Shown here: positions 20,106 through 49,267 of the stretch, piece by piece
How positions within the stretch are numbered: position 1 is the stretch's first letter
How the letters are laid out: every line of letters begins with the position of its first letter
Assembly: GCF_019649055.1 (NCBI RefSeq)
Contig: NW_026570262.1
Location: forward strand, 558,001 to 622,000
Source of the DNA: Paramacrobiotus metropolitanus
Lineage: Eukaryota > Tardigrada > Eutardigrada > Parachela > Macrobiotidae
Direction of reading: 5' to 3'
DNA length: 64,000 nucleotides
The notes under the pieces: generated by a model
What the model saw: the letters and a program-made list of their open reading frames with translations, nothing else
The model's database searches: none
Told to the model about the DNA's origin: nothing
Position numbers and translations under genes: made by a program

Positions 20106-23100
20106 TGCCTCTGGGCGGGAATCCGAGCTCCTGCGAAGGATGCTCCGACTCGGTACCGCACCAGTACCGCGCAACTCTCCGGTTGGACCCATGTGGGGTC
20201 GCCGGTACGCGTCCTCTGGCAGTGGGAGTCCGGTGTCTGGTCGACCGTCCCTTCTTCACTTCCGAACCCATGAGTGGAAGCCACTCACGGCCGAGAAATC
20301 CGGAAGCCGCTCGGGCGTTTGGTTGGACCGGTGATGCATCTGTTGGCTGGCTTCTTGCTTCTGTTGGCATCGGAGAACAGTGTGAAAAGAAAAATGTAAT
20401 GAAAGTTTATGCAGCGCGAAAGAAAGTAAATAAAGTTTAATCACAATTCTAGTGAGCAAAGGGGTTACAAAACAGATCTGTTAAAGAGATCGAACTAGAA
20501 AAATACAATTCCGTTTGTTAGGAGAAATGCTAAAAAAAATGCAAAAATCTGTCCGGGGGTCCTATTCCGACTAGGATGACGTCCACGGGGTCTCCTGTCC
20601 ACTTTCATCCGGTAAAGTTGGGTCCGGGGCATCGGTTCCCGGGTTACCCGTCGTAACCGGTTACATTCTCCGAGGTCGGATAAGCACGGTTAACACTTAC
20701 TTCCGACTCGTATCCGTCCGTTCGGGATAGGGAGGCACTGTTGCAGATGCAAATGCCGAGGCATCCTCTCTGAATGGGGAATAGGACCGAGGTCGGTTTG
20801 ACCAAGGTCGGCCTGCCGGTAAGTCGACCGGCGGCTGGGGGAAATTCGGCTATGTTCCGAATTGCTAAAGTCCAGGTCGGAAAAAGCTGTATGTAAATCA
20901 TGCGGCCTGTGTGGTCGTCATGTACAGCAGTTCCGTTCGAAAATTGGTCGGTTACAACCGTTGAATCTGCTACCACGAGCCTGGTTTGGAGTAATCCGAG
21001 TCGAACTGGCTCGAAGGTCCGATCGGAAATAATGGGTTTCTTCAACGGGAGTGTCAAGTCGACTTTCACGAGGTTGGCTATCCCGTCCGACCTGTAGTCA
21101 AGGTCGGTCATCCTATCCGCCGGTGGTCGACTAGGGTTAACCTGCAATAACATGCCCATGTGGGGCTAAACAAGTTCCTTGAAGTCAAGTTCGTCCACCG
21201 CGAACAGCTATCAATCTTCTTCCGTCATGTTGACTGAGTTTCCGACTTCCGACTTGTAGTCGGTTATGGTCGACTTCGAAAGGTCGGATGAACTGTGTGC
21301 TCATCCGTCCGAAGGGTAAGTTTTTCCGTCAGGGGGTCGGCTCTCGCCTTCCGCATGCCTTCGCCGACTTGTTGTCGCGTCCTTCCGACTTCTGTTGGGT
21401 CACTTCCGACCTTCGTTTGAGGTCGGCTATCTATATCGAAGTTCCGAGGTCGGCTGATTTCCGACTTCGTCGAGTCGGATGAACTGTGTGTTCATCCGTC
21501 GAAAAGACAAAGTTCTTCGGCTGGGAGGTCGATTTTCTACTTCCGATGGATTTTCCGACCTGTTGTCGTATACTTCCGACCTCCATCTGGTGACTTCCGA
21601 CTTCCGTCCGAGGTCGGTTGTGCCTTCTGCTTGATGGTCGACCTAGACAACTTGTACCGTTACGCCCATTGTGGGGCCAGTCGGCACTTGTCGAGTCAAC
21701 TTCTCTCTGACAAGAACTCTGGGTCGGATCCGAGCTACTGTTGGCTTGTTTATCCGAATGACTTGCCTCTGGGCCGCCAAGTCCTGCGAGGTAGGAGTTT
21801 CCTTGGCATCTGTTGGCCGAGTGACTGGCGCTTCGTCATGCAGATGTGCTCGCTTACGACACTAAGGGTCTGTGTGGCCCCGGTTGTCGAGCCGAGCTCT
21901 TTGGTTTAAAACTTCATGCACATGCACGTCCCTGAGGTCGTCAGATCCGATTCTTCCGTTTTGTTTTGTCGCGAACCTGAGACGCCTAGCCGCTTCTGTT
22001 GGGGGTAGACAACTCACGTCCACGGGGAAATTTTTCTTTGCCGGTGACGCTGGCCAATTGGCCGGTACTGTTGCGGGCAAGTGGTCATCGTCATCGGGGG
22101 TTCGTTAAAGGGGTGCCGGCCGAATATTCTAACTCGCTCTGCCTAGGATGTTCCATTGAAGACATGGGGAAGCAGGTCGCGGCGGAGTCGTTGGAGTGGC
22201 GGCCAAATCACCGTCGCTGTTCCTCTTCAGGGAATGGCAGCACGTTCGAGACGCGCGTAGTCGTGGTCACCGGTGAATCGGCTGGTTTACCCGATGTCAT
22301 CCGGGGGAGACTGCGGTTGGACTCCAGGTACAAGTTCCTAGTTGAGTTCCTGTAGATCTGGGTTCAAACGGAGAATCCGGTTAAGTTGCCACATGACTAC
22401 TGCTAGCTTCCGACCATTCTTCCTGATCGACTTCTGTTGGCCGTTATGGACGACCTGTGTGGTCGGCCCTAATGTCGATTTCCCGTGAGTCGGCTACCAT
22501 ATACTTAGTCGATCTGTGTGATCGGCTAAGGTAGCAAGTCGTGGTTCGGCGATCTGCATCGTTGTGGTTCCGACTTCAACTCTCTGAACAATTCGTTTCG
22601 AGTTTCCCAAAACCGATCTTTGTGATCGGCTTGCACAACCGACCTTTGTGGTCTGTTAGTGCCGCGATATCCGTTATGTCTCCAAGTTATGGGTAAAGTA
22701 CGGAGTCGACCTTTGTGGTCGACTCAAGTACGTATAGTCAAATCCGAATCTTGCTGCGCTGTTGGCGGCTCGGCCGAGGGATATCCGCTGTTTACATTGG
22801 TGAAGGCTGCTCGGCTACCCGGTCCCAAAGTCGGCCACGGGTGCTCGGCAAACATGACGATGAACACGCAGCGATGTATTCAGCGCCATGTTAGCGTAAT
22901 CCTCTCGGTCTATGCTCCGGAGTCGGTTGGCCGGAGTAATCTTCGTAGCCGGTCGTGGTTAATGGTGTGATCTGTACCATGTAACTATCGGTCGGCTCCA
23001 TGTAACGCGGATTGGGGCTTCTGTTGGCTCCGATGGTCGCAGAACGTGGTTGGCGATCTGCTATGTTAGCAGACGTGTTTTACGATCTGTTCGTGCCATG

Positions 23101-23683
23101 CTGGGGAACTGAGGTCGGTTTGCTCAGTTCGATCCAGGGGATTCCTCGGAAGACGTACCAGTACGGTGAAAGAAGCCGGCTTACCAGGTCTAACCATGCG
23201 TGTCCGTGTCCGGGCAAAAAAACTTGGATATGTGTGCCGAGATTTTTGTGGCTAACCATGCTTGGATTCGAACGGTAATGATATGTCCTGAAAGGGTTTG
23301 TCAAACCGAAAAATCCGGCTAACGTTTATAGTCGGCATTACCGGCAAAGTCATCGTTGACGCCCGCTGTACATGGTTGGTCGATTTCTATGAAAAGAACA
23401 AAAGAAAGGTGTCCATTCCGAAGCCGTTTCTCGACGATGCTGTTTCCCAGCCAGACTGTTTCTCAGTCAGGTCGGTTCTCGACCATGCCGTTTCTCGGCG
23501 CCAAGTCCCCCTTGATGTTCCAAGTGGGTGATCGAGTTCCAATGTGGGAACTCGATCTTAATTCAATGGGACTTCGACGGGCTTATCGCCGCCGAAGTAG
23601 TCTTCTTCATCCTAACCGTACGGGCGAGGCCGGTGATGTGGCCGCAAAGTCGGTTCTTTGGGTTTGCAAGTCGCCGGGCCACT
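20106..23683 (-). other. 3.6-kb non-coding tract of element B, dense in GTCGG/CCGAC words
   Basis: Between the last accessory frame and the 3' LTR there is no long ORF on the sense strand. The tract is packed with GTCGG and CCGAC words and with hairpins: 22451-22465, 22510-22524, 22613-22629, 22641-22653 and 22703-22725. The last has a perfect 9-bp stem. The sequence abutting the LTR (sense CCCGCCCAGAGGCA) is shared with element A; a related word (plus strand TGCCTCTGGGCCGCC) recurs near 21,766. There is no classical long polypurine tract. A structural RNA role such as packaging or a long 3' UTR is an inference. Confidence 0.6.
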
Positions 23684-24091
23684 TCATTGGGACATATCGT
23701 CAGTCTCATCCGTTTCCTGACCGGGGCGTTCCGCTTTAGTTTTCTTTTCCTTGGCCGCCTGTCTTCGGAGCCTCAGCACATACGGTTGTGCGCCGGAAGC
23801 TATGGCGTCCGACATCCGAGTTTCGCAAGGCGACGAGTTGAATCCGCTGGGCAAAGTCTTCTTTTCACGGTACCAGCTAATAAATCTAGTCGCGTCGTCG
23901 CAGGGATCTACGTGATCCTCACGGAAGGCATACTTTGTCGCATACCGTTCGTGGGTGTACAGCAAGTCGCGCATCCAGACGGCAAGGATAACACTTCTCA
24001 TCGGCGTGCCAAGTTGGGCCACGAGGGTTTCCAAGGCCGCTGGTATCATCTCAGTTTGGTACAGTCCGTACAGGTATAATGGCAAATGCAA
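23684..24091 (-). CDS. Element B accessory ORF, 135 codons (last before the 3' tract)
   Basis: It overlaps the end of the preceding frame by 46 bases and opens with a TTG, so it may be translated as a continuation of its neighbour or from a non-AUG start; the sequence does not decide. Features: YLYGLYQTEMIPAALETLV near the start, then MRDLLYTHERYATKYAF, and a basic tail with RLRRQAAKEKKTKAE. Its counterpart in element A follows the same upstream partner. No known domain. Confidence 0.5.
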   Translation of the reverse strand: MHLPLYLYGLYQTEMIPAALETLVAQLGTPMRSVILAVWMRDLLYTHERYATKYAFREDHVDPCDDATRFISWYREKKTLPSGFNSSPCETRMSDAIASGAQPYVLRLRRQAAKEKKTKAERPGQETDETDDMSQ

Positions 24092-24732
24092 TTGCCGAGC
24101 CGTGCTGCGAAGATAAATCGCAGGAATGCCGTGATTCCGTCCGGGGCAAGGTCGATCTCTCCTTCTGGGAGATGCGGGGTTAAGTCCAGTGCTGTCCGCG
24201 CCGCGGTGATGACGAAGGCCGGGTGAGCGTCCGTAATGACGAACTGGGAGATGCTTTCCAACACGTCATGGGCGTATTCCCGAGCTCCTGGTTGGCTCGC
24301 ACGCGTTCCGTCTGGGCTGTACAGCGGTACGTTCAGCAATACCGGTTCGGTCATTGACGGTAACGCATTCGATCTGATATACGGATGTTCACTATTTTGC
24401 GCTGTGTGCGCATTCATATTGAAGTCTGGTTGCCACTGATGTTGTTCCAGCAGCGTCTGGTATCCGGAACGGGCGAGGAATTGCCGAAGGTTTTCTACCA
24501 TCCGCCATACTTGTGGGCGTTGTCGTTCCTCGTAATTCATAGTCTCCATAATGTGGTTCGTTCGGTCGGTCGGATGTTGCATGACGACCTCGATTCCCTG
24601 TTGTCGGGCATGGTCGTAACGAGGATCTTCTCGTGCCGGCACTTCCACTTGTGGTAGTTGTGCCATCTGGTCGGCCACCTCAACATCCATTTGCTCTTGT
24701 TGAGCTGCCGGTTCGGCTTGAGCTTCAACCAT
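24046..24732 (-). CDS. Element B accessory ORF, 228 codons, conserved in element A
   Basis: Starts with an ATG and a Gln/Glu-rich leader, then a helical domain with HARQQGIEVVMQHPTDRTNH, VENLRQFLARSG and FNMNAHTAQNSEHPYIRSNA. A C-terminal helical part (FVITDAHPAFVITAARTAL, FLRFIFAARLGN) ends in a Cys/His cluster, CICHYTCTDC. The central words are conserved in A at 13,678-14,350. Conservation between old and young copies shows selection on the protein. The Cys cluster might bind metal. Function unknown. Confidence 0.65.
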   Translation of the reverse strand: MVEAQAEPAAQQEQMDVEVADQMAQLPQVEVPAREDPRYDHARQQGIEVVMQHPTDRTNHIMETMNYEERQRPQVWRMVENLRQFLARSGYQTLLEQHQWQPDFNMNAHTAQNSEHPYIRSNALPSMTEPVLLNVPLYSPDGTRASQPGAREYAHDVLESISQFVITDAHPAFVITAARTALDLTPHLPEGEIDLAPDGITAFLRFIFAARLGNCICHYTCTDCTKLR

Positions 24733-24990
24733 TGGTTCCGCCTGATGGGCTTCCGGCTGCTGTTCGGGTGGGACAAAGTTACGCTTCGACTTATTTGTTA
24801 AGTCGAGCGTAAGTCCGATTCCCGTTTCTCCAGATCCGCTCTGTTTTCCTGGTGGAGGTCTAGTCGGTTCTTTTCCGACTTCGCGGATTGCAGCTCGTTG
24901 CTCTTCGATTCTGTTTCAAAGGTCAACATGACCAATCCTATGTCGAAGGTCGTGTCCCGCGAGATTTTTGTTCGGTCGGCGTTGCTGCTG

Positions 24991-25368
24991 TTAAGTTGCC
25001 GATTGAGTCCGAGTTCCGTGTTGAGGAATCTGCTGGGAAACAGTTGGACGAGCCTGTGTGACTACTGGCGTTGCCCTGTGTGGGACTGCCATCAACTGTT
25101 CCTCAGTCGCTGGAGTAAGAGTAACCAACCGTCGGGTTCCGTCCGGCATATCCATCATCACTTTCATGGATGAATCTTTTATTGGTCGTTGGGGATCTCC
25201 GACGAGGACGTCACGTATATCGTGCATCAGCTGCTCGGTATCCGAGCAACCCTGTGTGGGTGCAAGTGACCGAACCTTTATTTCGGGCTCGTAGCAGGTC
25301 AGTGGGGGATGAACTCGCATTGTAGCCATCCGTTCCTCAACCTCCCTGCTCTTCTTCTGATCTTCCAA
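24991..25368 (-). CDS. Element B accessory ORF, 125 codons
   Basis: Opens at a TTG in the frame shown. Contains charged helix KKSREVEERMATMRVHPP, then CYEPEIKVRSLAP and VMMDMPDGTRRLVTLTPATE. The region just upstream carries a CQQC-containing word also seen in element A, so this may be the end of a longer conserved module. No domain recognised. Confidence 0.4.
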   Translation of the reverse strand: MEDQKKSREVEERMATMRVHPPLTCYEPEIKVRSLAPTQGCSDTEQLMHDIRDVLVGDPQRPIKDSSMKVMMDMPDGTRRLVTLTPATEEQLMAVPHRATPVVTQARPTVSQQIPQHGTRTQSAT

Positions 25369-25889
25369 TTGTCGTTTTAAGTCTTGCGTCTGGCGGTACT
25401 CCCACAGTCGATCTGTTAAGACTGGTGGGACAGTTCCCTCCCATCCTGGGTCGCGACTTCGTTGTCGCTAGATGGTGGCCAGATTGTCCTGTTCATGTGC
25501 CTGCAGCTGATCCACGAGAGTTTCTCGGCGGGCTATTTACCGGTACGCACTCAGGTTTCCAGCGACAACATTAATGTAAAGTGCCGCTGCCTGAGCTCGT
25601 GTCTGCGGTCCAGTGCCGACGGTCCGTTCATTCGTAAAGGAAACAATGTATTCTGCGCAGGGCAATCTGTTGTTGTCCCGTGTCGCATTATTCCTGCACT
25701 GTTGGCAGTCCACCGTGTAAGCTTCCGTACGAGTCTGTCAAAACAAAAGTAAGCAAACCGTTTCTCGGTTGCATCCTATAGTTTACACCCTATGATTACT
25801 ACGGTCGGGCCAGGTCGGTTTTCGAACTGGTCCAAGGCGCCTTTGTGGTTGCCTAATGAGGTAAGTCGACTTCTGTTGGTCTATGACGC

Positions 25890-26588
25890 CTATGTGGTGT
25901 CAATGGGGAAGTCGGTTCTGCAACTCCTCCGACGCGTTCTACGTCTCCTCATTCCCGTATAGGTGCTTCGGTCGGCCAACTCGGTCGGTTGTTTCGAGGT
26001 AGGTCGTTCCGTCGGTAAGTGTCCATGACGGTGAGTTGATGGATTCAAGACTAAAAACCGTTGACCGCCCTGGACTGTATTGGTGTTCGAGGCAAACCGT
26101 TGTTGGTAAAGCGCCTTCGATAGGACGAATTCTAAATCGTCTTCCAGGGAGTATTTCTTCCGTCGTTCGCTCGGGTCCGGTTTCGCTTTATACTTCGGGT
26201 CGGTTAGCTGGGGTTTCTCAGCCTTCCATTCAAACTCGAACCGTGCTGTGAGTTGTTGGAGTATTTCTCCACGGGTCAATCCTTCTGGATGCCAAGACAT
26301 TCCCATGCATGCTTCGATGGCATGTACGTATGTTGAAGGAGCCGGGTCTCTCTGAGCCGGTGGGAACTCGTAGTACATCCGCTTTGTGCTGGTGTACGTA
26401 CGTATCAGTCTTCGTGCATGGTATCCCAAGTCACAGTATTGCCGTACTAAGTTGAGACTTAGTTGTCTCCATCCTCCGCCGATTTTGTTCACCTTCCAAT
26501 GTTGGAGGAGTTTGAAAGCGATCCTTGGTGTGGCAAACTTCGGTACACGTGTCGCAAGGGCCTTCAGGGCGGCGAATGTGTACATCAT
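25890..26588 (-). CDS. Element B accessory ORF, 232 codons, helical, conserved in element A
   Basis: Its ATG overlaps the stop of the upstream ORF in an ATGA arrangement, which suggests coupled termination-reinitiation. The N-terminal half is helical: MMYTFAALKALATRVPKFAT, PRIAFKLLQHWKVNKIGGGW, LSLNLVRQYCDLGYHARRLI. The middle has AIEACMGMSWHPEGLT. A second helical part contains SLEDDLEFVLSKALYQQRF, and the tail is basic and Arg/Thr-rich. Element A carries the same two helical blocks. The fold is unknown; a nucleic-acid-binding or assembly role would be speculation. Confidence 0.65.
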   Translation of the reverse strand: MMYTFAALKALATRVPKFATPRIAFKLLQHWKVNKIGGGWRQLSLNLVRQYCDLGYHARRLIRTYTSTKRMYYEFPPAQRDPAPSTYVHAIEACMGMSWHPEGLTRGEILQQLTARFEFEWKAEKPQLTDPKYKAKPDPSERRKKYSLEDDLEFVLSKALYQQRFASNTNTVQGGQRFLVLNPSTHRHGHLPTERPTSKQPTELADRSTYTGMRRRRTRRRSCRTDFPIDTT

Positions 26589-27289
26589 CCCGGGTCGTAT
26601 TCCGAGATGGCCGGCTTCGGTCGTTGAGCCGTTTTGATGTCGATGTACTTCACGTTTACGTTGGCCAACTTAGGGACGTCATCTGGTAGGACTTCCATTT
26701 GATCTTCAGTCCATTCCGAAAGGAGTGGCCATTGGTTGGAGTCGGGCGTCAGTGGTATCCGTTGACCATACTGACGAGGGACGTATACTCCACCATCTCC
26801 TTCATCCCCTTTAGAATCATCGGCTTTGTCGCCGATGTCTTTTTCTTCAGGTTGTTTGTCCGGTATCTCCGGTTCGCCCTGCTGTTGAGGTGCCGATGGT
26901 GGGGGTTTATCGTTGTCATTGTCGTCGTCGTCCGACCCGCTTTGTGCGGTGTCGAATGTATCGCCCTCGTCTTCCTCTTCGGTTGACGATTCCTCCTTCT
27001 TCTTTGTCGACTTCTTCTTTGTCTTGGTCGACTTCGACTGGCCCTTATGTTGGGTCAAGTCTTCCGGCTCCGGCGAAATTTCCATGGGCGAGGACGGTGG
27101 AAGTGACTGTACGTCCTTCGGTATGAACCGTCCTTTCGCACCCCGAGTCGGTTTTGCCGTACTTGCTCGTCCTGTCGGAACTGAAGCCGTACCGACGTAT
27201 GTTGTCGGTTCAAAAGGTGCTCGAGGTCGGGGTAAAACTTGGACTCGTCTTTGTGACGATTGTCCAGCCGTTCGAGCTATGTGCAGCAT
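26585..27289 (-). CDS. Element B accessory ORF, 234 codons, acidic and disordered
   Basis: ATG start. Lys/Pro-rich beginning, then PPSSPMEISPEPEDL (conserved in A), a Lys/Ser run (KTKKKSTKKKEESSTEEEDE) and an Asp/Asn run (DDDDNDNDK), with a C-terminal block containing PKLANVNVKYIDIKTAQRPK. Probably a disordered phosphoprotein-like linker; no catalytic motif. Stop overlaps the next ORF's ATG (ATGA). Confidence 0.6.
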   Translation of the reverse strand: MLHIARTAGQSSQRRVQVLPRPRAPFEPTTYVGTASVPTGRASTAKPTRGAKGRFIPKDVQSLPPSSPMEISPEPEDLTQHKGQSKSTKTKKKSTKKKEESSTEEEDEGDTFDTAQSGSDDDDNDNDKPPPSAPQQQGEPEIPDKQPEEKDIGDKADDSKGDEGDGGVYVPRQYGQRIPLTPDSNQWPLLSEWTEDQMEVLPDDVPKLANVNVKYIDIKTAQRPKPAISEYDPG

Positions 27290-27375
27290 GTTGGCCGTTT
27301 CATCTGACGGTTGTTCGTTCGAATCGCTATAGACTTCGGTAACTTCCGTACCGGCGGAGGCTTATCCTTGTAGAC

Positions 27376-27789
27376 TTAAGACATCCGGAGGTTGAATTCA
27401 CGCCGCTGTTGTTCCGGTATGAAACTGGGCACAGTGTACCGTAAAGGTATGTCGCGTTTTGCGTTGGTCGTCTGGAGAGTGTGTTCCTCGACCAGGGATG
27501 CGATTCGTCCAGCTATCCTATCGTTGATGATGTCGTCAATATTCCCCTTCTTGTCCATGTACATCACGTTATATACACGGGCAATTTGGACTAAGGTCGA
27601 TCCACGGAGATTCCGAATGTATCCGATGCACCTTGCTATTCTAGTCGGTGTATCGTCCGCGTTCCTTGCGGCAGCACTTTTAAATGCTTTGATGAGATCC
27701 GGTGGGAGCAGCTCAGCCATCCGTCCCCATTGTCGGTGAACGGCCACTGCTAATCCGAAATCCAGAGTCCAGGCGACGATTTGCATCAT
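27376..27789 (-). CDS. Element B accessory ORF, 137 codons, helical, conserved in element A
   Basis: ATG start. Contains AWTLDFGLAVAVHRQWGRM, ELLPPDLIKAFKSAAARN, RIARCIGYIRNLRG, IARVYNVMYMDKKGNIDD and RIAGRIASLVEEH, ending in YTVPSFIPEQQRREF. The last two blocks are recognisable in element A. The composition suggests a compact all-helical domain. Such a small helical protein could bind RNA, but no known family is recognised. Confidence 0.6.
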   Translation of the reverse strand: MMQIVAWTLDFGLAVAVHRQWGRMAELLPPDLIKAFKSAAARNADDTPTRIARCIGYIRNLRGSTLVQIARVYNVMYMDKKGNIDDIINDRIAGRIASLVEEHTLQTTNAKRDIPLRYTVPSFIPEQQRREFNLRMS

Positions 27790-27810
27790 GAGTTGATGCG
27801 TTAACCATGT

Positions 27811-29823: not shown

Positions 29824-30009
29824 GAGTTGTTCCTTGGTTCTGACCGGTGGTGGTGACTTCGACGGGAAGAGACGCCTTCGTGGTCCGTGCTCTTCTATGC
29901 GTTCACTCTGAGGTTCTCTTGTGAGAGCCCAGGTAAAGTTGTTGGTCGTTCGAGGGGCTAAGGTCGGCTAGCTTCTGTTGCTCCGACTTCCTCCGATGTA
30001 TCCATCGGT

Positions 30010-30870: not shown

Positions 30871-31183
30871 AATCCGAGCCTGTGGCCGGGGACATGGGCC
30901 GGTCGACTGTTTCCACTAGTTTCGGTTGAGCCAAGCCTGCTGTTGAGGTCGGCTGGGATTGAGCCGGAGCTGAAGTCGGGGTCGGTTGACTCGAGCTCGT
31001 CGGTTGCTGCGTGCAAACCGAGCAAGAGTTGTTTGGCTTCTTAGTCCGTAGTCTGTTTATCATCCATTTGCGTAAGAGGATTTCGATCTCCGCTTCTATG
31101 TCCTGGACGTGCATCTGAGAGATCCTAAGTTGATCTTTAATTGCCGTCCGAATGTTACGGATGGTCGGATCTGTTTCGTCCAT
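30800..31183 (-). CDS. Element B accessory ORF, 127 codons
   Basis: Begins ATG with a helical unit (MDETDPTIRNIRTAIKDQLR, DIEAEIEILLRKW), then a Thr/Ser/Pro/Gln-rich linker. The word MDETD also appears in the module of the next ORF (MMDETDQESP), supporting internal duplication of helical units. Overlaps the 286-codon frame by 71 bases. Confidence 0.5.
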   Translation of the reverse strand: MDETDPTIRNIRTAIKDQLRISQMHVQDIEAEIEILLRKWMINRLRTKKPNNSCSVCTQQPTSSSQPTPTSAPAQSQPTSTAGLAQPKLVETVDRPMSPATGSDYGSHTGQEQIAEYGRAPYSQTVG

Positions 31184-31216
31184 ATTGTCGACTTGACGTT
31201 TTAAGTCGATAGTAAT

Positions 31217-31900: not shown

Positions 31901-31957
31901 CACCGCTGTCGTAGTCGGTGCTGCTCGGCGAGGTGGCGACGGCGTCGCAATCCGAGT

Positions 31958-42100: not shown

Positions 42101-43327
42101 ACAGCAATGAGACACTATGAAGGCGACTTGTCCGCCTACACCAAGTATTTTGGTGTAGTGTCCGAGAGGTTGGATCGTTAAGCCATTCCTCTCGCAGAAC
42201 CGCTGTTCGATGAGCGAGGTCTCCGCTCCGGTATCCAACATCGCCAGTGTGGGCGTGGATCCGACTTGGATTTCGTGTGTCCAAGCTCGAACTGTCTTCG
42301 GTTTCTTGTGTGTTCGCTTCTCAAAGGTTACTTCCCGCACCGTTGGTTTGATGGGGATTAACGACACCGGTCCGTGGTCGGCTGGCTGTTGAGTTGAACC
42401 TTGTGTAGATTCAACTCCGACTTCAACCACCTCTTGTACCTCAGGTCGGTTAGCTACTCCGTCCTCCGGTATTTCGGCGGTTCCGAACCGTTGTGCCTGT
42501 GCCTGTATCCGTTCCTCCATTGAGACTTCTGTTGGCCTCAATGTCGACCACATGTAGTCGAGGTTGAGGAATGTTCGGCAACCAGCTACCGTTCTGGTCG
42601 GCTGTTCCTTCAGTTGGAAGAGGTCCGCTTCCTCCGGCCGAGAGTAGGCAGATACCTGTACTTCCAATGGGACTGTTTCCCACATTTCGACTTCTTCCGG
42701 TTCTTCGGTGAGGTCGATAGCTGCCATTGTTGCAGCGTATCTATCCGTTGTACGGGCGGATGATACATTGGGGAAGTTTCTGTTGCCCCGATGCGTGGAT
42801 CGGCGTCCCGGTCCTCCACGTCTTGGGCCTCGTCTGGGCTGCTCGGTTGAGTTTATCCTCACCGGCAATCCGGTCCAACTTCCGTGGCCGGGCCGTACTA
42901 CGTCACTTTGTGTGACGGACGGCGCAGTCGCATTGTTTGCGCTGCTTGGGTCGGGCAATTCTTGCGTTCCGACCTCCGACGTTCCAACGCCAAGTTGAGG
43001 CGCTGGGTCGGTTGCCTCAAGTGCTTGATGCATCCCGGGCCAGGCTTCGACGGTGCCATTGTTGGCGTACACGCCGAGCTGAGCGGCTAGCTTCCGAGCC
43101 GTCTCGACCTCCTTTGTGGAGGCTGACATTGCTTTTGCAAAGTCGTCTTCTGAACTATTGTGGTTCAGTCCGAGCAGTTGGAGGATGACTTCTATCTGTT
43201 GAGTGCCCTCCTCGATCATCCTGGGAAAGTTCAATTCGTTCCGGTAATTAAGTGGTTGGTTAGTCGGGTTATCCTTGTCCGGTGGTTCGGTTGGATATTG
43301 GAGGTCGAATGAGTCACCGGAGCTCAT
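36167..43327 (-). CDS. pol: Element B Pol polyprotein (protease, RT, RNase H, integrase), 2,386 codons
   Basis: ATG start. Rough order by residue: Arg/Gly-rich patch 165-185; aspartic protease with DTGA at 365; two Cys2-His2-like clusters (CRHC at 497 with His 514 and 519; CAIC at 721 with His 738-739); acidic linker 815-890; reverse transcriptase about 1320-1530 with YIDDI near 1476; RNase H with DASG near 1627; integrase zinc domain near 1929-1962 and catalytic D1991, D2052, E2088 (spacing 35 between the last two). An AT-hook-like RGRPRKK near 2315 closes the protein. Ordinary Ty3/gypsy Pol is 1,000-1,300 residues, so the N-terminal and protease-RT linker regions are unusually long. The element's copy looks whole. 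It should make cDNA from the RNA and insert it. A perfect 17-bp hairpin lies inside the integrase coding region. Confidence 0.92.
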   Translation of the reverse strand: MSSGDSFDLQYPTEPPDKDNPTNQPLNYRNELNFPRMIEEGTQQIEVILQLLGLNHNSSEDDFAKAMSASTKEVETARKLAAQLGVYANNGTVEAWPGMHQALEATDPAPQLGVGTSEVGTQELPDPSSANNATAPSVTQSDVVRPGHGSWTGLPVRINSTEQPRRGPRRGGPGRRSTHRGNRNFPNVSSARTTDRYAATMAAIDLTEEPEEVEMWETVPLEVQVSAYSRPEEADLFQLKEQPTRTVAGCRTFLNLDYMWSTLRPTEVSMEERIQAQAQRFGTAEIPEDGVANRPEVQEVVEVGVESTQGSTQQPADHGPVSLIPIKPTVREVTFEKRTHKKPKTVRAWTHEIQVGSTPTLAMLDTGAETSLIEQRFCERNGLTIQPLGHYTKILGVGGQVAFIVSHCCTAPVTMQGFTSHHTFHVQPTEADIPVLLGCDYLHSKFTFILTPIPIPEQPEGTTVVQSIPIPEASDTVGNEVRISRLDHPANSTRNICRHCRDTNRTLLEELALHNVIEHYQKRIRDGTLRPARTVLKSIPIPEASADADAMNREEVRQKYRTWFSGVRHFLDQRTSEIVATLQQNGAITPDQILDAQQMCEPVIALMTDVEDEAWEWEDERIPIHRQHMEYRLPIPPPLEMPCQEIGSQLFAYMQRVRLHGESSTTAFWQRYGEDTTITRQVPRPLPPLKPHTPTDVKFASSPAKPQGNVIPEETDQPYRCAICQDNIDEVVRAIKAHHDLTWSDDRPSSPSPPQQERKVDRFRKPQQTSIRWLSNIGSQPADLENQDGVSRPTQPTDKVDQLEPTTKVGFEDMPEVDPENGSEVEFEDYQSDDLDIQSTSDSADTDSDNRPSEESEEDDDEEFDLSVRHCKTDKPSINDSDDSSSEDEEPTYDVRLTTALRSIVHTEIIDEQPEQPEQEKPVDSEQQEELDQLKALWEFGGGKPEQDDFRPPTIAIQQLSTEQPTLANLTDQQKSEHFNTWKARVAKVKTIDELDLDNKCPEVHHLKLDPYVETKALDRQVVFNSERVSLPPWSTCSIKVRTAKPMDPRRGIYFSTLQRVVRPIRPIEAKIDIRPQVDTAWINVQNTTHHTKVLKKGVRLGHMQYADVYEPEINNEFVEWELPHKVAKTWPPTREIKPKPQFEVFEATGVRAQRKVKLIPRAVTMVEVVLDVPVSTDQKLMYLGESDPKRDGVEFMDGVTKHDGKRFTVMVANHTHREVTLRKGAPMGRAEAFTMMTDDQKVEEARVNTAEVEKEDAESQEERRRIIDSMNFGKNLTDEQLAKLKAVAWDYRTVFPTSKKPYGDVKGVTHTIDVQGAQPIKMNPTRTSWKGREFIQKHVQEMLDQGVIEPSSAAWSFPVVLAAKRNGDGTVGTRFCINNIKLNAVTKKNNYPLPNPDELLDRCAGMEYYGKVDCQSGFWQIPMDKQSKDYTTFVTPEGMWRFNRMPFGVCNGPATFQMHMDKITASARKKGVFAYIDDIIFFGKTFEDFLEAFRATLECLRDAGFTVKPSKCEIGTDRLLFLGHVLSKDGVQTDDEKVACIAEQSCPRTERQLRSFLGLANYYRKFIRGYAQKTSKMYELLRKDRNIKLDWTEAHTAEFNDIKKALTEAPVLAKFDPTKKTVIECDASGAGLGAVISQDDHPIAYASRVLRGPELNYGVTEWECLAVVWAVQKFKHFIDHGPFTVRTDHRALQNLLRCESNRPGINPRLTRWALALQGRDITIEYKPGVFYDNADALSRWPLERSEDKDPHEELDQVPNFEDFKDEVKVCTVRTLRRLKANASKRNKKDKENPPKIPLPPVLPGCNVITDWDDLSTTEVRVINIPAPETPELTIRTVNTAEDDELEVEETLPPPPEPNMELRKAQLRDPQLRKIIDELENPEKLDHKSKHLEHYQMAQGVLYRLKTINTKLERCFVVAEVVSGKTGNHFGREKTIEALKLQYFWTRMNSDAIAYIEKCRQCIMTNKQRCPPPGKLQKTEVGEAWYRIYADFKGPLPRTETKGYQYIAVVTDQLTKFTVARATKTNTAREFERFFVKDVLLKYGMPTFIHSDRGTHFTAKTFAKVARIFAIQHTLGTAHHPEGQGQVERQMQTIWDGIRKFCDVKDGHRWHRALDYVVCGMNRAVHAATKFSPFYMLYGREMTMPQDVVAGTNTPETFTDKEHYIRRIKERLQRSHEIARINIDEAFERNAEHYNKKKSSPTFKPRDKVTVEFPTKDPTRKERYDGVWTVINYVGPNNLLLRCEDGREDTVAVDRVKHCRVETSRPATRSTGPVADPTEGKSTRKPKKKPEGTVEKSSDPTNEADKTEPAVKKKRGRPRKKPPTDFETPALKELQKQDVVAAEPAPTSEEAENEAQPTMEKSEESDDSRKRQLSQPTNLRRNQRSW
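37536..37574 (-). repeat. Perfect 17-bp-stem hairpin inside pol
   Basis: GCCGAAGTGGTTTCCGG (37536-37552) is followed by TTTTT and then its exact complement, CCGGAAACCACTTCGGC (37558-37574). It encodes residues around AEVVSGKTGNHFG, just at the first His of the integrase zinc domain. Seventeen perfect pairs in coding sequence are far beyond chance and demand compatible codon choice on both arms. Confidence 0.9.
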
Positions 43328-43388: not shown

Positions 43389-45635
43389 TCAACGACTGGC
43401 GGGGCGGCAACGGTTCTCTGTATGCCGGGGAACCCTGTTGGTTCCCGCCGCTGTTCCTGCGGTTCCCGCCATTCCCTTGGCCGGCGACCGGTTTCCGTTG
43501 CCGGAGCTACCCGAGCCACCAGCCTGTTGCTGGCGAAGGCGCGGTGGTGGCACGATGTCCCTCCAGAATGGATTCGCCGAGCCAATCGGGCCATTCGTCG
43601 AGTATCGGCGGTACCAATCGTCGTACCACCGAAGGTTCGGATTGTTATCCGACCCATATATGCAGCGCGACTCGTCATGATTGTTGAACATGCAGTGCCT
43701 GCACCTGAAGGTCTTGTCCTTCGTCCACTGGAGGAAGGCTGCCTCCATTTTGTCGACATATGTCATCGCTTGCCGAGCACTTTGTTGTGCTTGGGGAGGT
43801 CGGTTCCCCTGTTGGTTGCCGCCTCCGCCGCGGTTAGGGAAGTTCCCACGGCCGCGATTCCCGCCGCCGCGTCCCTTTGCGCGACCATAGCCTCCGCCGC
43901 CATATCCTTGTGGGGGATACTGGCCGTATGCGGAGTATCCCTGATTAGGGTTCTGTCCGTAACCAAAACCTATGTTGTTTTGGTTGCCGCCCGAATTGTA
44001 ACCTGGGCCTCCGTAGTTGTTAACGGGGGCTCCAATTCCAGGTGCCGGGGGATTCAGGTTGGCTGCCGCCGCGCCCGCCCAGGTCTGTTGCTGGACTGGT
44101 GCTTGTTGCACCGGTGGCGTCGGCGCCGGACTCGGTTGTCCGTACTGTGCCGTTGGAGTTTGGTATCCCGGCATCATGTGCGGCTGATATCCGGTCTGTT
44201 GCGGTATCGCCGGAGGTGGAGTTGGGACAGGTACAGGTGTTGCTGCCCGAACTCGGATGTAATCGCCATCCCGTGGTTTCCGCACCTCATACATCTCCTT
44301 GCCGTTGACGAAGCTCCGCAGGTAGTCACGGAACTCGATCTTCGTTGCCGGCATCCTGATTTCCAGGGCCTCCCGTAGTTTGGGTTCATGGATGTTCTCC
44401 TTGAGATGATATAGGATTATCTGATCGGTGACTGTAGGGACTTGGGACTTCATGAACATCATTGCATCGTAGTACTGTTCCGGCGTTTCTTCGCCGAAAC
44501 GGAATATCCGTTTGTTAATTCGGGATATCATGCTCACTTCTTTGTTTTTGTTCGCAAATCGCTGCTCGAATTTGGTCAGCCATAAGTTGACTGGCCATCC
44601 GCCGAGTGGTTCTCCAGCGGCTTCGAGGGTATGCCAGTGTTCCGCTTGGCCATCTAGTTGGGCTACCAAGTCGGACATGAAGGTCTGATCGTCTTCATAC
44701 CATTGTTGGGCCTGACGATACAGGCTTCGGATCTGTTTGAGCCACCCATGAAGTTTGGTGTGGTCACCGTCGAACGGCGGTAAGGGTTGCCGACGTCCGT
44801 GGGCCATTGCGCGCACCAAAGCGACGTGTGCTGGGTCTTGTCCCAGAGGGATCGGATGTGCCGCCGGCGCAGCTTGTTGTGCAGCCGGGGCGGGTGGCGG
44901 GTTGGCGTATGGCATGTGACCTTGTTGGTCTTCGTATGCCTCCTGTTGGTAGGCTTCTTCGTCGTAGCCGTCGTATTCGTCCTGTTGCGGATATCGAGCC
45001 TGGGCCTGGTCTTCGTGACGAGGCCGTTGTGGCTGTCCTCCATACTGTTGTGGAGGGGGCGCTCGATTTTGTCTCGGCGCCTGCGGATAGAATCCACTCG
45101 GTTGGTCGTAGACTCTTCCGTACCGGTTGGGCTGTGTTCCCTGAGCCGGCATCCGACTCTGTATAGGTCGGTTCGGAGGCCTCCGGCCCTGTTGGTCGGA
45201 GCTGTCCTCCTGATTTCGTCCGTCCTGCCGCTGGTCGGCCGTGTTGAATGACCGAGCTCGCCCGCGTTCAAAGTCGAGCTGCGGGTTCTGGCGGAGTAAA
45301 TTCGGTTTGTAGTTCGTCCTTGGTGGGCGATATGCCTCCGTGCTAGGTCTCAGTGGCGGGACTGGGAGACGTTCGGCATCTGTTGCCCGGTCTCCTCTCA
45401 CGTTGGGTACCGGCGCGTACGTTGTTGTCCGCGTTGTGTACGAGGCGCTAGTATGCGCGCCGGCAGACGTCGTTGTCGCCACGTTCGACGTGGGCACCCG
45501 TGGTGCCGCGGTCGACGTATTGTGTTCCGGTTCCGGAGCAGCCGGTACTGTTGGTGGTTGTGGGATTGTTCCCACACTCAGATCGGTTGTTACGACTCCG
45601 ACGAAGTAGGAGGTGTTGTTCTCCTTCTTCGCCAT
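43389..45635 (-). CDS. gag: Element B Gag, 748 codons
   Basis: ATG start. Order: disordered N-terminal third, rich in Pro, Gln, Asn and Tyr; capsid-like helical domain with LPPFDGDHTKLHGWLKQIRS, LVAQLDGQAEHWHTLE, WLTKFEQRFANKN and FGEETPEQYYDAMMFMKSQ, matching the retrotransposon gag pattern; Pro/Gln-rich stretch; Gly/Arg-rich stretch (GRAKGRGGGNRGRGNFPNRG); and a zinc knuckle CRHCMFNNHDESRC (C-x2-C-x4-H-x4-C). A Gly/Ser/Arg tail follows. It should form the particle and bind the element RNA, perhaps through the knuckle and Gly/Arg stretch. It looks whole. Longer than most Ty3/gypsy Gags (about 300-500 residues). Confidence 0.88.
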   Translation of the reverse strand: MAKKENNTSYFVGVVTTDLSVGTIPQPPTVPAAPEPEHNTSTAAPRVPTSNVATTTSAGAHTSASYTTRTTTYAPVPNVRGDRATDAERLPVPPLRPSTEAYRPPRTNYKPNLLRQNPQLDFERGRARSFNTADQRQDGRNQEDSSDQQGRRPPNRPIQSRMPAQGTQPNRYGRVYDQPSGFYPQAPRQNRAPPPQQYGGQPQRPRHEDQAQARYPQQDEYDGYDEEAYQQEAYEDQQGHMPYANPPPAPAAQQAAPAAHPIPLGQDPAHVALVRAMAHGRRQPLPPFDGDHTKLHGWLKQIRSLYRQAQQWYEDDQTFMSDLVAQLDGQAEHWHTLEAAGEPLGGWPVNLWLTKFEQRFANKNKEVSMISRINKRIFRFGEETPEQYYDAMMFMKSQVPTVTDQIILYHLKENIHEPKLREALEIRMPATKIEFRDYLRSFVNGKEMYEVRKPRDGDYIRVRAATPVPVPTPPPAIPQQTGYQPHMMPGYQTPTAQYGQPSPAPTPPVQQAPVQQQTWAGAAAANLNPPAPGIGAPVNNYGGPGYNSGGNQNNIGFGYGQNPNQGYSAYGQYPPQGYGGGGYGRAKGRGGGNRGRGNFPNRGGGGNQQGNRPPQAQQSARQAMTYVDKMEAAFLQWTKDKTFRCRHCMFNNHDESRCIYGSDNNPNLRWYDDWYRRYSTNGPIGSANPFWRDIVPPPRLRQQQAGGSGSSGNGNRSPAKGMAGTAGTAAGTNRVPRHTENRCRPASR

Positions 45636-45686: not shown

Positions 45687-47960
45687 CTATTGATCCTGTG
45701 CCATGGACGTTCGATATGAGGGAGGTTCGACTCGGCTTTGTTCCCGGTATGAGGGAAGTTCGACCTGGCTTTGTTCCAGGTGCTTCTTCTCCTCCCTCAG
45801 ACACCGTGTTTCAGTGTCCATTTCGTCCATTTGTCGCATCATCTCCGTGAGATTGCGAGCAGCCTGTTCGCCGAATTCATACAGCTCGGTTTCGCGAGCC
45901 TCCAGGTAAAGGATGCGGCTGTGTTGCGCCTCGTTTACCTTTTGAGCTTCGTTCAGGCTGTACTCTAGTTGAGCTCGGAGCTTCTGTTCCTCCTTAAGGA
46001 CTTTGTTCAGTCCATGAACCTGGTCGGCCAATTGGGCGTTTGCTTCCACCAGGTCGGCATCGGCAGTCCTCTGGTTAGGAAAGTCTGTTTGCCGAGTGTG
46101 TGCGTCAATGAATTGACGACCCATTCTGACGAGGAGGAGTTCCATTTCCGACTCGAGTTCGTCGGTTCGTTGCGTTAGTCGGTCGATCTCGTTATCGGCC
46201 TTCTTAAGTTCCACCACATATCTATCGACTTCGTTTCGATGGACCTCGGCTTCTTCGTTGGCCTGATTGAGTTGCTGGTGGAACGCTCCTGCCGCCATTT
46301 CCGATTCGACCAACGCCGTTTGTACGTCGGCCAGTTCTTTCTTTGCCTCTTCGAGTGCTTTGTGCGCCTCGTCGAGTTCGCGTTTGATTTCAAAAACGGC
46401 TGCTGTTGACCGTTCCAACCTGCCAGTAAGTATGGCGATTTGGTCATCTTCGTATCGACACGGTAAGTCGGCTCGCTTCAATATGGCGTTGAGCCGGTCG
46501 ATCTCCCGTTGTTGGGTGGCGATGCCCTTGTTGGCATCAGCCATGTCTCGTTCCCATTTCCTCCGTTCGAGTTTATGGGTATCCTCCGAGTTTCGGAGGG
46601 ATCCTTTTGCCGAGTCGACGATCTTATCCGCCAAAACGATCTGTGTGATCAGTTTGTGGCATCTCGCTCGGAGTAGGTCGAGATCGGTGATCTTTTCGGG
46701 CGGTGTTGCCGCGATCCACTTTTTCGCCGTGTACTCGAGTGCACTGGCTTGGTATCCGAGGTTTTCCTTATCGGACTTGGGTGGTGTCGTAAAAAATCCG
46801 TCCGCACTACTCGGTCTTGATGCATTTGTTGCCTCAAAGACTTCGTTTGTCGGTGACGGAGTACTACCAAGTTCGCCAGTTCCGAACATTGGTGGTGACA
46901 ACCTTAGGTTCAGGTCGACAGGTCGACTTTGTGTCGCCTTAGTCGACTTCACCGTTTGTTGAGCTTCGGTTGCTCGAGTCGACTCGCTTCCGGTTGGCGA
47001 AGGTCGGCTCAACGGCGGAATTACCCGTTCGTTGGGTGCCGGTATGCTAGTCGGCGATCCGGCTGGATGAGGGCCGCTTCGTGGCGGTACCTCGGAATCT
47101 TTCGTTCCGGTCGGTGATTTGGTCGACTGGACGGCCGCATCCGACTTTGTGTCGGTCGGTTGCCGTTCCAGGCTAGTCGGTTGCTTGTTGCCGACTTCCT
47201 TTTCTCCGACCTCTATGGTCGGCATCTGTTGACCGACCTTCGAGATCGGCGAAATCCTTCCGACCTGTGTGGTCGGTTGGACTTTGCCGACTTCTGTTGT
47301 CGGCTTTTCCATTCCGTTCGAGGTCGGTTGTTCGACCTCTTTCGTTGGCGGTAGGTCGACCTTCTGTTGGTCGACTTCCTTTGCTGAGGGCTGGTCGACC
47401 ATTTGTTGGTCGGCTTCCCTAGTCGGTGATTGTTCGCCGGCTTCTTTAGTCGGAGATTTTCGCTCGACCTGTGTGGTCGGCGATTTCCATCCGACTCGGT
47501 TAGTCGCCATATCCTTGTTGGGCGAGGTCGGCTTCGGCACTTCTTCCGTTCCGTTGGGGGATTGCCGGCCGAGCTCGGTGGCTTTTGTAGCCGTTACCGA
47601 GTCTTGAGCTCTGTGTGAGCTCGACTGTTGGTCGGCATGAGACAATGTGGTCTCTGCCTGCAGCTGTTCCACATCCCCCCCGGTCGGGTGGGACGGGGCT
47701 GCTACGTCAGCTGGGGCTTCCAGGAATGTTTTATCCCTGGCGTCCTCAAAACTGTCATCCGAAGTTGGATTCGAGTCGGCAAGGAGGATCCGTTCGTTAC
47801 GCTTCTCCCTTGCTTCGGCCGACTTAGTCGAGTCGGTTGAGGACGGCTGACTTTTGTCTTGACCGGCGTACCGAAGTGAGTACTTCCCGGTCATGTTCGC
47901 ACGCCGAGAATAGTCCATGTTGAACTTTCTCGCGTACTCGTTCTCTCTAGGATTCGACAT
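45687..47960 (-). CDS. Element B first ORF, 757 codons, repeat-rich head and long coiled coil
   Basis: ATG start, upstream of Gag. The first 400 residues are low complexity, with many variants of PTTQVG, PTKEV, SPTREAD and PTTEVG; these words are encoded by the loop-conserved hairpins at 47141-47622. From about residue 450 on, it is a long coiled coil: RKWERDMADANKGIATQQRE, RELDEAHKALEEAKKELADV, VDRYVVELKKADNEIDRLTQ and similar heptads to near the end. A coiled-coil protein encoded before Gag is unusual for Ty3/gypsy. It might help assemble particles or transport them; that is inference. Looks whole. Confidence 0.7.
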   Translation of the reverse strand: MSNPRENEYARKFNMDYSRRANMTGKYSLRYAGQDKSQPSSTDSTKSAEAREKRNERILLADSNPTSDDSFEDARDKTFLEAPADVAAPSHPTGGDVEQLQAETTLSHADQQSSSHRAQDSVTATKATELGRQSPNGTEEVPKPTSPNKDMATNRVGWKSPTTQVERKSPTKEAGEQSPTREADQQMVDQPSAKEVDQQKVDLPPTKEVEQPTSNGMEKPTTEVGKVQPTTQVGRISPISKVGQQMPTIEVGEKEVGNKQPTSLERQPTDTKSDAAVQSTKSPTGTKDSEVPPRSGPHPAGSPTSIPAPNERVIPPLSRPSPTGSESTRATEAQQTVKSTKATQSRPVDLNLRLSPPMFGTGELGSTPSPTNEVFEATNASRPSSADGFFTTPPKSDKENLGYQASALEYTAKKWIAATPPEKITDLDLLRARCHKLITQIVLADKIVDSAKGSLRNSEDTHKLERRKWERDMADANKGIATQQREIDRLNAILKRADLPCRYEDDQIAILTGRLERSTAAVFEIKRELDEAHKALEEAKKELADVQTALVESEMAAGAFHQQLNQANEEAEVHRNEVDRYVVELKKADNEIDRLTQRTDELESEMELLLVRMGRQFIDAHTRQTDFPNQRTADADLVEANAQLADQVHGLNKVLKEEQKLRAQLEYSLNEAQKVNEAQHSRILYLEARETELYEFGEQAARNLTEMMRQMDEMDTETRCLREEKKHLEQSQVELPSYREQSRVEPPSYRTSMAQDQ

Positions 47961-49267
47961 TGTTGTCGAATCGGGTCGGCTCTGGTGGAGCCTTTAAAAG
48001 GTTTTACCAGTTAGAAAGCGAAAGTCGAACAATCTTCTGTGTGAAGATGTTCGATAAAGTCAGGAATGTCTTTTAGTTCAGGAACTTCCGAGGGTCAGGA
48101 CCGTCCGGTGAAATGTTGTTGTTGTTGTTGATGTGTCTGTTGGTGACTCAGTACACAGGGTATTAATATACAGTACAATGGTACAGTACAGTACGTAATA
48201 GTAGTACGGTGTAGTACGTCCTATGTTACTGTGCTGACCAGTGTGACGTAACAGGTTAAGTGGTCTTGCACTTCTGCCTACGTCACAGAATGCGAGCCGC
48301 GTGCAAAAGTTTAAAAAAATGATGATTCACGCTATGTTAAGCTATGGGAACTTTCCCCTGCACGCTGATTGGCTGCTTCTTAAGTACTGATAAGCGGTCG
48401 TTATGACGTCACAAGGAAGTTCGAGAATTTTCGCGCTATTTCCCGCGAGAAAAACAAATTATTTTTGGTCGGCTAGAAAATTTATCTAGTCGGATTTTTA
48501 AGTTTTTAACCGTTAGAAATTATTTTTATTAATTAAGGAAAATTTTCTGGTGGTCGAAAGACCGTTAGAAATCAAAAATAAGAGAATTTCCGACCTGTTG
48601 CCGGTTAGCCTTTGTCTAACTGTCTAGACAGGTTCGTTGACCTAGCAGGTCGGTTCTCGACCAAAAGCAAAATTCCGAGTCGGTTTCTCCGTCAGAGATT
48701 ACTTTTTAACCGTTAAAAAGTTAAATTTTACGGATAGAAATCGTTTTCTACCGTTAGAAAGTGAAATGCCGACCTAGTTTCGGCTAAAATCGACCTACAA
48801 CCGTGACTTTACCGGTGTCGGTGTCGGTGTCGGTTCCGGTCGATTTCCTCCGTCCGAGGTCGGAAATCCGTCGTTTCCGTGCTGAAAACCGCCGTTAGAG
48901 TTGCGGGTCGGTGTTCAAACCGAAGGCCCCCGTATTATTGGAGTAATCCTTCGCGCTGCAGACTCTCGTTCGAGTCTGATCCGTCGGTTGGGAGAGAAAA
49001 TGTCCGTGCTGTTGGGAATGTGCTCTTCAATGTGGAAGAGACGAAGAAACTGTGCTCACCAGCTGGGCAAGAATCACTTCAGTGATCCCCGTTATTCCTC
49101 AGCTGTAAGACGATGCGATCAATCCGATCAAAGTCAAGGCAGAGATTGCTTCAGCAATCTATCTGACAGTGACTTTCAGGTTCCTCACAAATTCTCCGTG
49201 AATGAAGCCTTCACCGTCTCCTCAAAGGGTTCCGTAGGAAGGAAAACCAGAAAAGATGCTGCTACCA
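47961..49267 (-). other. 5' leader of element B
   Basis: About 1.3 kb between the 5' LTR and the first ORF, with no ORF of note on the sense strand. It holds the hairpin at 48032-48048 and a patch near 48,150-48,230 crowded with GTAC words (CAGTACAATGGTACAGTACA). It should contain the packaging and dimer signals of the RNA by analogy with other LTR elements; none is proven. Confidence 0.6.
49247..49267 (-). promoter_or_regulatory. Primer-binding site of element B (initiator tRNA-Met-like)
   Basis: Directly inside the 5' LTR the sense strand reads TGGTAGCAGCATC. The first nine bases are complementary to the CTGCTACCA 3' end of eukaryotic initiator methionine tRNA; after that the match fails. 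Ty3 itself uses initiator tRNA-Met with a short first contact, so a short site is acceptable. Start with TGG immediately after the LTR is the usual position. Confidence 0.65.

Follow-up and report, generated by a model that had tools for sequence, protein, structure and literature searches.

Along its sense strand, a giant Ty3-type long terminal repeat (LTR) retroelement of the tardigrade Paramacrobiotus metropolitanus carries tens of short hairpins in which a fixed five-base loop is presented on stems of widely differing sequence. The element, referred to here as element B, lies in a stretch of 64,000 nucleotides (the window; contig NW_026570262.1, positions 558,001 to 622,000 of the forward strand), of which it occupies 29,924 bp on the minus strand. 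Selection on this fixed-loop hairpin structure is well supported by sequence shuffling, by conservation of the loop around a free base N in non-coding copies, by some compensation in the stems, by high predicted pairing and by the finding that a related element has a loop of its own. We consider it an evenly balanced proposition that the hairpins are dispersed recognition sites on the 30-kb transcript, read by a protein of the element, most likely Gag, for packaging, and that the loops have been switched between related elements.

The ACANA hairpins of element B

On the sense strand of element B, 37 of the 214 pentamers of the form ACA[ACG]A are closed by a perfect stem of at least four Watson–Crick pairs. 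By loop, these are 18 of 81 for ACAAA, 12 of 58 for ACACA and 7 of 75 for ACAGA, with none of 32 for ACATA. An initial annotation of the window had reported at least 28 such sites between 22451 and 48048, a count that is thereby confirmed; one strong site, of 9 bp at 21476-21498, falls outside this range. All the stems it had named were found again, namely CGTCAC (42901-42917), CCTCC (43108-43122), GAGCTC (47606-47622), ATCTTC (48032-48048), GGATC (31978-31992 and 30492-30506), AACCC (31325-31339) and CGACT (36002-36016). The hairpins are the following.

48032-48048, minus strand: loop ACACA, 6 bp; in the leader
47606-47622, minus strand: loop ACACA, 6 bp
47580-47592, minus strand: loop ACAAA, 4 bp
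47465-47479, minus strand: loop ACACA, 5 bp
47396-47412, minus strand: loop ACAAA, 6 bp
47260-47276, minus strand: loop ACACA, 6 bp
47141-47155, minus strand: loop ACAAA, 5 bp
46924-46936, minus strand: loop ACAAA, 4 bp
46638-46650, minus strand: loop ACACA, 4 bp
45375-45387, minus strand: loop ACAGA, 4 bp
43108-43122, minus strand: loop ACAAA, 5 bp
42901-42917, minus strand: loop ACAAA, 6 bp; loop and stem identical in 7/7 copies
41529-41541, minus strand: loop ACAAA, 4 bp; perfect stem peculiar to the window copy
40899-40915, minus strand: loop ACAAA, 6 bp; loop class and inner four pairs retained in 26/26 usable copies
39392-39404, minus strand: loop ACACA, 4 bp
37592-37604, minus strand: loop ACAAA, 4 bp
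36101-36115, minus strand: loop ACAGA, 5 bp; inner stem retained in 10/18 usable copies
36002-36016, minus strand: loop ACAGA, 5 bp; loop retained in 2/17 copies, inner stem in 6/17
34754-34768, minus strand: loop ACACA, 5 bp
32999-33013, minus strand: loop ACAGA, 5 bp
31978-31992, minus strand: loop ACAGA, 5 bp
31325-31339, minus strand: loop ACAAA, 5 bp
30774-30788, minus strand: loop ACAGA, 5 bp
30492-30506, minus strand: loop ACAAA, 5 bp
28237-28249, minus strand: loop ACAAA, 4 bp
27245-27259, minus strand: loop ACAAA, 5 bp
26937-26949, minus strand: loop ACAAA, 4 bp
25249-25261, minus strand: loop ACACA, 4 bp
24786-24806, minus strand: loop ACAAA, 8 bp
24398-24412, minus strand: loop ACACA, 5 bp; loop retained in 24/24 copies, inner stem in only 6/24
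23082-23094, minus strand: loop ACAGA, 4 bp; loop retained in 16/21 usable copies, inner stem in 13/21
22703-22725, minus strand: loop ACAAA, 9 bp; loop retained in 27/27 usable copies
22641-22653, minus strand: loop ACAAA, 4 bp
22613-22629, minus strand: loop ACAAA, 6 bp; T-A to C-G compensation in some copies
22510-22524, minus strand: loop ACACA, 5 bp; T-A to C-G compensation in some copies
22451-22465, minus strand: loop ACACA, 5 bp; retained in 22/22 usable copies
21476-21498, minus strand: loop ACACA, 9 bp; outside the range first annotated

Neither of the two kinds of shuffle that had been proposed as a check reaches similar numbers. In 300 dinucleotide shuffles of element B the mean was 0.79 hairpins and the maximum 4, which puts the observed 37 in an excess of about 47-fold. 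Synonymous-codon shuffles of 13 open reading frames (ORFs; 300 runs) gave a mean of 1.54 and a maximum of 7, compared with 24 hairpins among 148 pentamers observed. A scan of loop patterns returned ACANA as the top 5-nt pattern (37/246, with 1.78 expected; nominal P 2.6e-35). Over the whole window, the loop is hairpin-borne in 38 of 410 cases on the minus strand, one of which lies outside element B, at 17166, and in 0 of 191 on the plus strand. The same strand bias is found in 20 other copies of which 7.0-7.5 kb each were read, with 119/1047 on the A-rich strand and 0/114 on the opposite one.

Among the 246 ACANA pentamers, stems of exactly three pairs number 8, those of four pairs 12 and those of at least five pairs 25; because there is no excess at three pairs, though chance favours three far over five, a stem of about four pairs looks required. 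The first and last A of the loop are strict, since pentamers with another first base never have stems of at least four pairs (0/407) and those with another last base rarely do (3/524). The closing pair is C-G in 29 of the 37, A-T in 6, T-A in 2 and never G-C, compared with 22 C-G, 19 A-T, 7 T-A and 10 G-C at chance stems of one to three pairs. The stems themselves are diverse, with 24 distinct inner 4-bp sequences among the 37. An ATAGA loop with its first base at 47216 (minus strand) sits on the common stem CCGACC/GGTCGG, which shows that loop position 2 can vary.

The motif is also displayed in loops of other sizes. When stems of at least five pairs and loops of 4-7 nt were considered, 75 of 211 hairpins contained ACA in the loop, versus 5.95 of 80.9 in shuffles preserving local composition. 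These loops comprise 6 of 4 nt, 31 of 5 nt, 19 of 6 nt and 19 of 7 nt, and the position of ACA is regular: offset 0 in 5-nt loops (25 vs 0.5 in shuffles) and offset 1 in 6-nt (15 vs 0.4) and 7-nt loops (13 vs 0.45). Hairpins without ACA are likewise in excess (136 vs 74), so some general structure is present too. The predicted probability of the closing pair has a median of 1.00 for the 37 hairpins, with 33 above 0.5, while other 5-nt loops on stems of at least four pairs reach a median of 0.49, with 64/129 above 0.5. Loops of the complementary class TNTGT were never found on such stems (0/32), so that loop–loop kissing with a complementary class is not the role. No Rfam family matched at gathering score over 19700-49700. 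In the 3' tract, at 21200-22000 on the minus strand, there are many CCGAC and GTCGG half stems together with CAACAGAAG repeats; these half stems and CAACAGAAG repeats suggest additional hairpins with larger loops.

Element B is made up of the following parts.

19725-49648, minus strand: element B, giant Ty3-type LTR retroelement, recognized by its LTRs and Pol domains
49268-49648, minus strand: 5' LTR, 381 nt
45687-47960, minus strand: ORF1, 757 aa; resembles a coiled coil (Pfam matches all below threshold); holds the densest cluster of hairpins, with 8 sites
43389-45635, minus strand: Gag candidate, 748 aa; one CCHC zinc knuckle (CX2CX4HX4C); adjoins pol upstream; candidate hairpin binder
36167-43327, minus strand: Pol, 2386 aa; protease, reverse transcriptase, RNase H and integrase
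24046-35590, minus strand: ten accessory ORFs of at least 150 aa downstream of pol, from a mechanical ORF list using bacterial start codons
19725-20105, minus strand: 3' LTR, 381 nt

The two LTRs begin and end with TGT...ACA and differ by one mismatch over their 381 nt, so the insertion is young. A flanking 4-bp repeat, TTCC, was seen when LTR lengths of 370-399 were tried, and the similarity at 49568-49648, which continues past a 300-nt exact repeat, is the remainder of the LTR. The order of the Pol domains is the one expected for Ty3/gypsy. The ORF at 43389-45635 has no Pfam match of its own and is taken as Gag on account of its CCHC knuckle, its position upstream of pol and a DUF4939 match below threshold (E 0.076) on a homologue, P0005. 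ORF1 matches five proteins, all from P. metropolitanus. None of the ten accessory ORFs has a Pfam match above cut-off, several contain strongly basic stretches, and a protein search with one of them (228 aa) returned no match. Within pol, the minus strand holds an 18-bp perfect inverted repeat with loop AAAAA at 37534-37574; one fetched copy aligns across the whole stretch, and one arm differs in sequence there, which suggests a snap-back event during reverse transcription of this copy of element B.

Hairpin density is highest in ORF1 (3.5 per kb), followed by the 3' tract (1.7 per kb), whereas gag and the leader hold one site each. The non-coding 3' tract contains seven of the 37. Those within ORFs occupy, as first annotated, more than one codon phase, but phase 0 dominates (15, 1 and 8 for phases 0, 1 and 2).

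Two further features of the window lie outside element B. A minisatellite at 50240-51258, with 69 copies of a 15-bp unit and several frames open on both strands, gives trivially many hairpins and was excluded from all inference. An inverted repeat at 6228-6904 has 97-nt arms that are 87% complementary and 483 nt apart.

Conservation and compensation among genomic copies

Element B belongs to a family with many members. A search of the genome (169.8 Mb, 533 contigs) with a 601-base piece of pol gave at least 40 matches (40 of 143 candidates were scored), and fetched copies were aligned to the hairpin sites. At the 14 sites with at least ten usable copies, 273 of 306 site-copies retain the loop class, and 241 of the 306 still have the inner four pairs when G-U is counted as a pair. 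Loss of pairing in other copies, which had been named as a point that would speak against the hairpins, is therefore seen at some sites and not at most of these 14.

The clearest pattern comes from the non-coding 3' tract. Relative to the window copy, loop positions 1, 2, 3 and 5 diverge by 0.018, N by 0.132, the arms by 0.070 and the flanks by 0.141, so that the fixed loop bases change about eight times less than the flanks. At coding sites the fixed loop (0.036) and the arms (0.054) also diverge less than the flanks (0.126). Changes shared between sequences, counted per column as alternative bases common to at least two sequences with the window included, were as follows: in the 3' tract 1 in 28 for the fixed loop, 5 in 7 for N, 18 in 84 for the arms and 34 in 84 for the flanks; at coding sites 2 in 28, 1 in 7, 10 in 68 and 26 in 100, respectively.

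Compensatory changes, for which the initial annotation had advised looking, occur to a modest extent, with 19 cells in which both sides had changed to give a different Watson–Crick pair. An alignment spanning five hairpins (18 of 30 loci, the window copy included) showed 94.8% paired cells versus 94.1 in shuffles (3/500 as high), 7 both-sided cells versus 2.1 (0/500) and a covariation score of 0.066 versus 0.053 (0/500). On this alignment RNAalifold recovered the inner four or five pairs of every hairpin but the third (22613-22629), where the predicted stem encloses a larger loop; its covariation term was near zero.

Several observations weigh against the reading of these sites as conserved, RNA-borne recognition hairpins. 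At least one fetched copy is available for only 23 of the 37 sites (355 site-copies), and at least ten usable copies for only 14 (332 site-copies, of which 26 were dropped for gaps, insertions or shifts). The sites at 36002-36016 and 24398-24412 are lost in most other copies, and the innermost A-T pair of 41529-41541 reads A-C in 7/7 copies. At coding sites N diverges as little as the fixed loop bases do (0.029 vs 0.036), so that a free N is confined to the non-coding part. Two of the five covariation measures, both-sided pairs (92/500) and pair types (435/500), are unexceptional against shuffles, and an alignment slid by +3 matches the covariation score of the real one. Among varied pairs, sense G-U (63 cells) is not commoner than A-C (97 cells), and shared changes in the inner four pairs give 2 G-U versus 7 A-C. 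Finally, the leader holds only 1 of the 37 hairpins, so the signal is not concentrated there as in retroviral Psi. Retroviral packaging signals usually lie in the leader.

Because G-U is not favoured over A-C, the copies alone do not establish the sense RNA, as opposed to the DNA, as the target of selection. The RNA form is favoured by the strand bias, by the near-absence of the hairpins outside the element (1 site in the window) and by predicted folding. The selection on a fixed-loop hairpin structure proposed by the initial annotation is supported, while the G-U test, meant to show that RNA and not DNA is selected, was negative.

Element A and a second loop code

The window also contains part of a second giant element, element A, which a translated search relates to the accessory region of element B. 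It retains, at 16697-16735, a 39-bp stretch resembling the 3' LTR region of element B.

9901-16300, plus strand: element A, part of a related giant element; 11 YANC tetraloop hairpins
10068, 10443, 10918, 11018, 11747, 12238, 12264, plus strand: first loop bases of YANC hairpins
13261, 13487, 13834, 14045, plus strand: first loop bases of the remaining YANC hairpins

No ACANA hairpin was found in element A in the window (0/31), nor in the fetched pieces of element A. Instead, the loop-pattern scan gave YANC as the best 4-nt pattern, with 11 of 255 on stems of at least four pairs, 1.29 expected and a nominal P of 1.3e-7; the best of five shuffles reached 1.3e-4. Two further pieces were available from another copy of element A. 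One (L059) is about 70% identical to the fragment in the window; the other (L060), from further upstream in the same copy, includes a 590-aa ORF and the greater part of Pol. No similarity between L060 and the window fragment could be detected, which makes L060 a fully out-of-sample test. YANC hairpins number 17/270 in L059 and 10/244 in L060, while dinucleotide shuffles gave 0.85 for the window fragment, 0.78 for L059 (maximum 5 in 300) and 0.85 for L060 (maximum 7 in 300). The opposite strand gave 0/130 and 0/114. In synonymous shuffles of four ORFs the mean was 1.47 and the maximum 6, against 19/392 observed; the Pol ORF alone has only 3 (shuffle mean 0.42, maximum 3).

The three pieces together have 38 YANC hairpins, some of them homologous between the window fragment and L059; 31 of the 38 close with C-G, and 26 distinct inner stems are represented. 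Between the two copies stems compensate, as in the change from gcac/gtgc to gctc/gagc at 14045. Some hairpins appear or disappear by substitution at homologous places, and sites with and without the hairpin mostly align in register. In element B, YANC hairpins are slightly below expectation (2/1182 vs 3.5). The L060 Pol is 66% identical to that of element B over 1090 aa. A third related Ty3 element (69% identical to the Pol of A in the best translated stretch) gave 0/30 for ACANA, 0/117 for YANC and no pattern beyond its shuffles in the loop-pattern scan, all in one 5-kb piece and thus a small sample.

Element A has a further motif, TAGAAGT in 7-nt loops (12680-15400 and both fetched pieces), with more copies in the window. 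In L059 and L060 together, TANNAGT stands on stems of at least four pairs in 5 of 9 occurrences. These loops are possibly a second recognition hairpin.

Candidate readers and significance

Stems of free sequence, an asymmetric loop that stays fixed, a favoured closing pair and the presence of tens of sites on each RNA point to a repeatedly used protein-recognition hairpin. That the RNA form matters, that a protein binds, that Gag is the reader and that packaging is the role are all what we infer from these patterns. The hairpins would be structures in the genomic transcript of element B, each displaying its short fixed loop on a stem of at least four pairs of free sequence, and would together provide many copies of one protein-recognition site along the 30-kb RNA. 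The reader would be encoded by the element, most likely the CCHC zinc-knuckle Gag, which might collect, condense and selectively package the RNA of its own element. Gag is ranked ahead of the accessory proteins because it carries the knuckle and has to locate the RNA of its own element. Loop and reader may evolve together, giving ACANA in B and YANC in A. That giant Ty3 elements in one genome carry such element-specific codes, each element's protein reading only its own, is a conjecture to which we give slightly less than even weight.

A possible, though unlikely, variant is that an RNA-binding accessory protein of the element reads the hairpins to coat, stabilize or export the long RNA, in a Rev-like or CERV-like manner, rather than Gag reading them for packaging. 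The hairpins reach their highest density in ORF1 and the 3' tract and are sparse in gag, and the ten accessory ORFs without Pfam assignment include several that are strongly basic in stretches. Moreover, the Ty3-type element Cer1 of Caenorhabditis elegans requires an extra protein, CERV, which acts on its genomic RNA; the role there is export, and the terms RNA element and stem-loop are absent from the main text of that report (PMC10309623). None of the ten accessory ORFs has an RNA-binding domain above the Pfam cut-off, and the hairpins of element B span the whole RNA, unlike export elements. The latter are usually confined to one region.

Reading by a host RNA-binding protein that regulates translation, decay or localization of the element's RNA is improbable. 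Short loops on free stems are indeed common among host regulatory elements. The loops nevertheless differ between two related elements of one genome, which disfavours a single host reader; furthermore, the third related element shows neither code in 5 kb, and the window outside element B has one ACANA hairpin.

Still less probable is a mutational origin, by which snap-back or template switching of the reverse transcriptase would make inverted repeats, with the loop as the turning point of the enzyme. The inverted repeat at 37534-37574 resembles such an event, and the excess of hairpins without ACA would fit it as well. Conserved loop bases with a free N, a preference for C-G closure, compensation and two codes are not predicted by such a process, and some hairpins of element A were gained or lost by substitutions. 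The spread of a tiny mobile palindrome, the alternative offered by the initial annotation, is hardly credible: GACC (8/37) or GATC (5/37) adjoins the loop in several stems, and a gap covers most of the hairpin in 5 of 355 aligned site-copies, at two sites (23090 and 22460), but the diversity of the inner stems and the mostly in-register alignment of the two A copies speak against it. Chance or amino-acid bias, for which the A-rich sense strand and the dominance of phase 0 could be cited, can be set aside almost entirely, since it is refuted by the dinucleotide and synonymous shuffles and by the seven hairpins in the non-coding 3' tract.

For dispersed recognition hairpins read by Gag, the closest working model, as an analogy of mechanism and not of membership, would be satellite tobacco necrosis virus (STNV). 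STNV has about 30 dispersed stem-loops that display the degenerate loop motif AXXA (ACAA in aptamer B3) in 4-, 5- or 6-base loops; the motif promotes assembly, for which the stem sequence is indifferent (PMC3593212). Element B similarly has many dispersed stem-loops with a common motif, free stems and tolerance of several loop sizes (ACA in 4- to 7-nt loops), and its sites are mostly kept in other copies, two of the 14 tested being exceptions. STNV is an icosahedral RNA virus with a genome of 1239 nt, and its assembly, driven by the coat protein, has been measured; element B, in contrast, is a 30-kb retroelement. Multi-site packaging signals with a common recognition motif have also been proposed for MS2, picornaviruses and hepatitis B virus (RGAG); the proteins and loops are different, and the excerpts at hand mention neither an LTR retroelement nor a second loop code.

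In retroviruses and Ty1, a cis-acting signal underlies the preference of Gag for its own genomic RNA (PMC8396678), which is the role proposed for the hairpins of element B. The placement differs, as retroviral Psi lies near the 5' end while the hairpins cluster in ORF1 and the 3' tract. In size and organization, the Burro elements of planarians can be likened to element B by description only: they are of Ty3/gypsy type, exceed 30 kb and have accessory ORFs, and they differ in a very large polyprotein; loop hairpins are not mentioned in the sections of PMC6431247 covered.

Titles and abstract beginnings in the open-access literature, subscription journals being outside the search, revealed no report of fixed-loop hairpins dispersed in an LTR retroelement and no description of giant elements of this tardigrade. 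While dispersed packaging-signal-like hairpins are already known, a giant Ty3 element as their carrier and two loop codes in one genome are new.

For several RNA viruses, packaging signals scattered along the genome have been put forward, with degenerate motifs that are hard to prove by sequence alone, and the packaging of retroelements is commonly attributed to a 5' signal. The present hairpins would extend dispersed signals to retroelements. They are directly testable owing to their strong excess, well-kept loop, many genomic copies with variation and natural code swap between two related elements. If the proposal is true, related retroelements would recognize themselves orthogonally and would have switched codes as they evolved. 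It also suggests a way in which a 30-kb RNA might be condensed and cross-packaging between related elements avoided.

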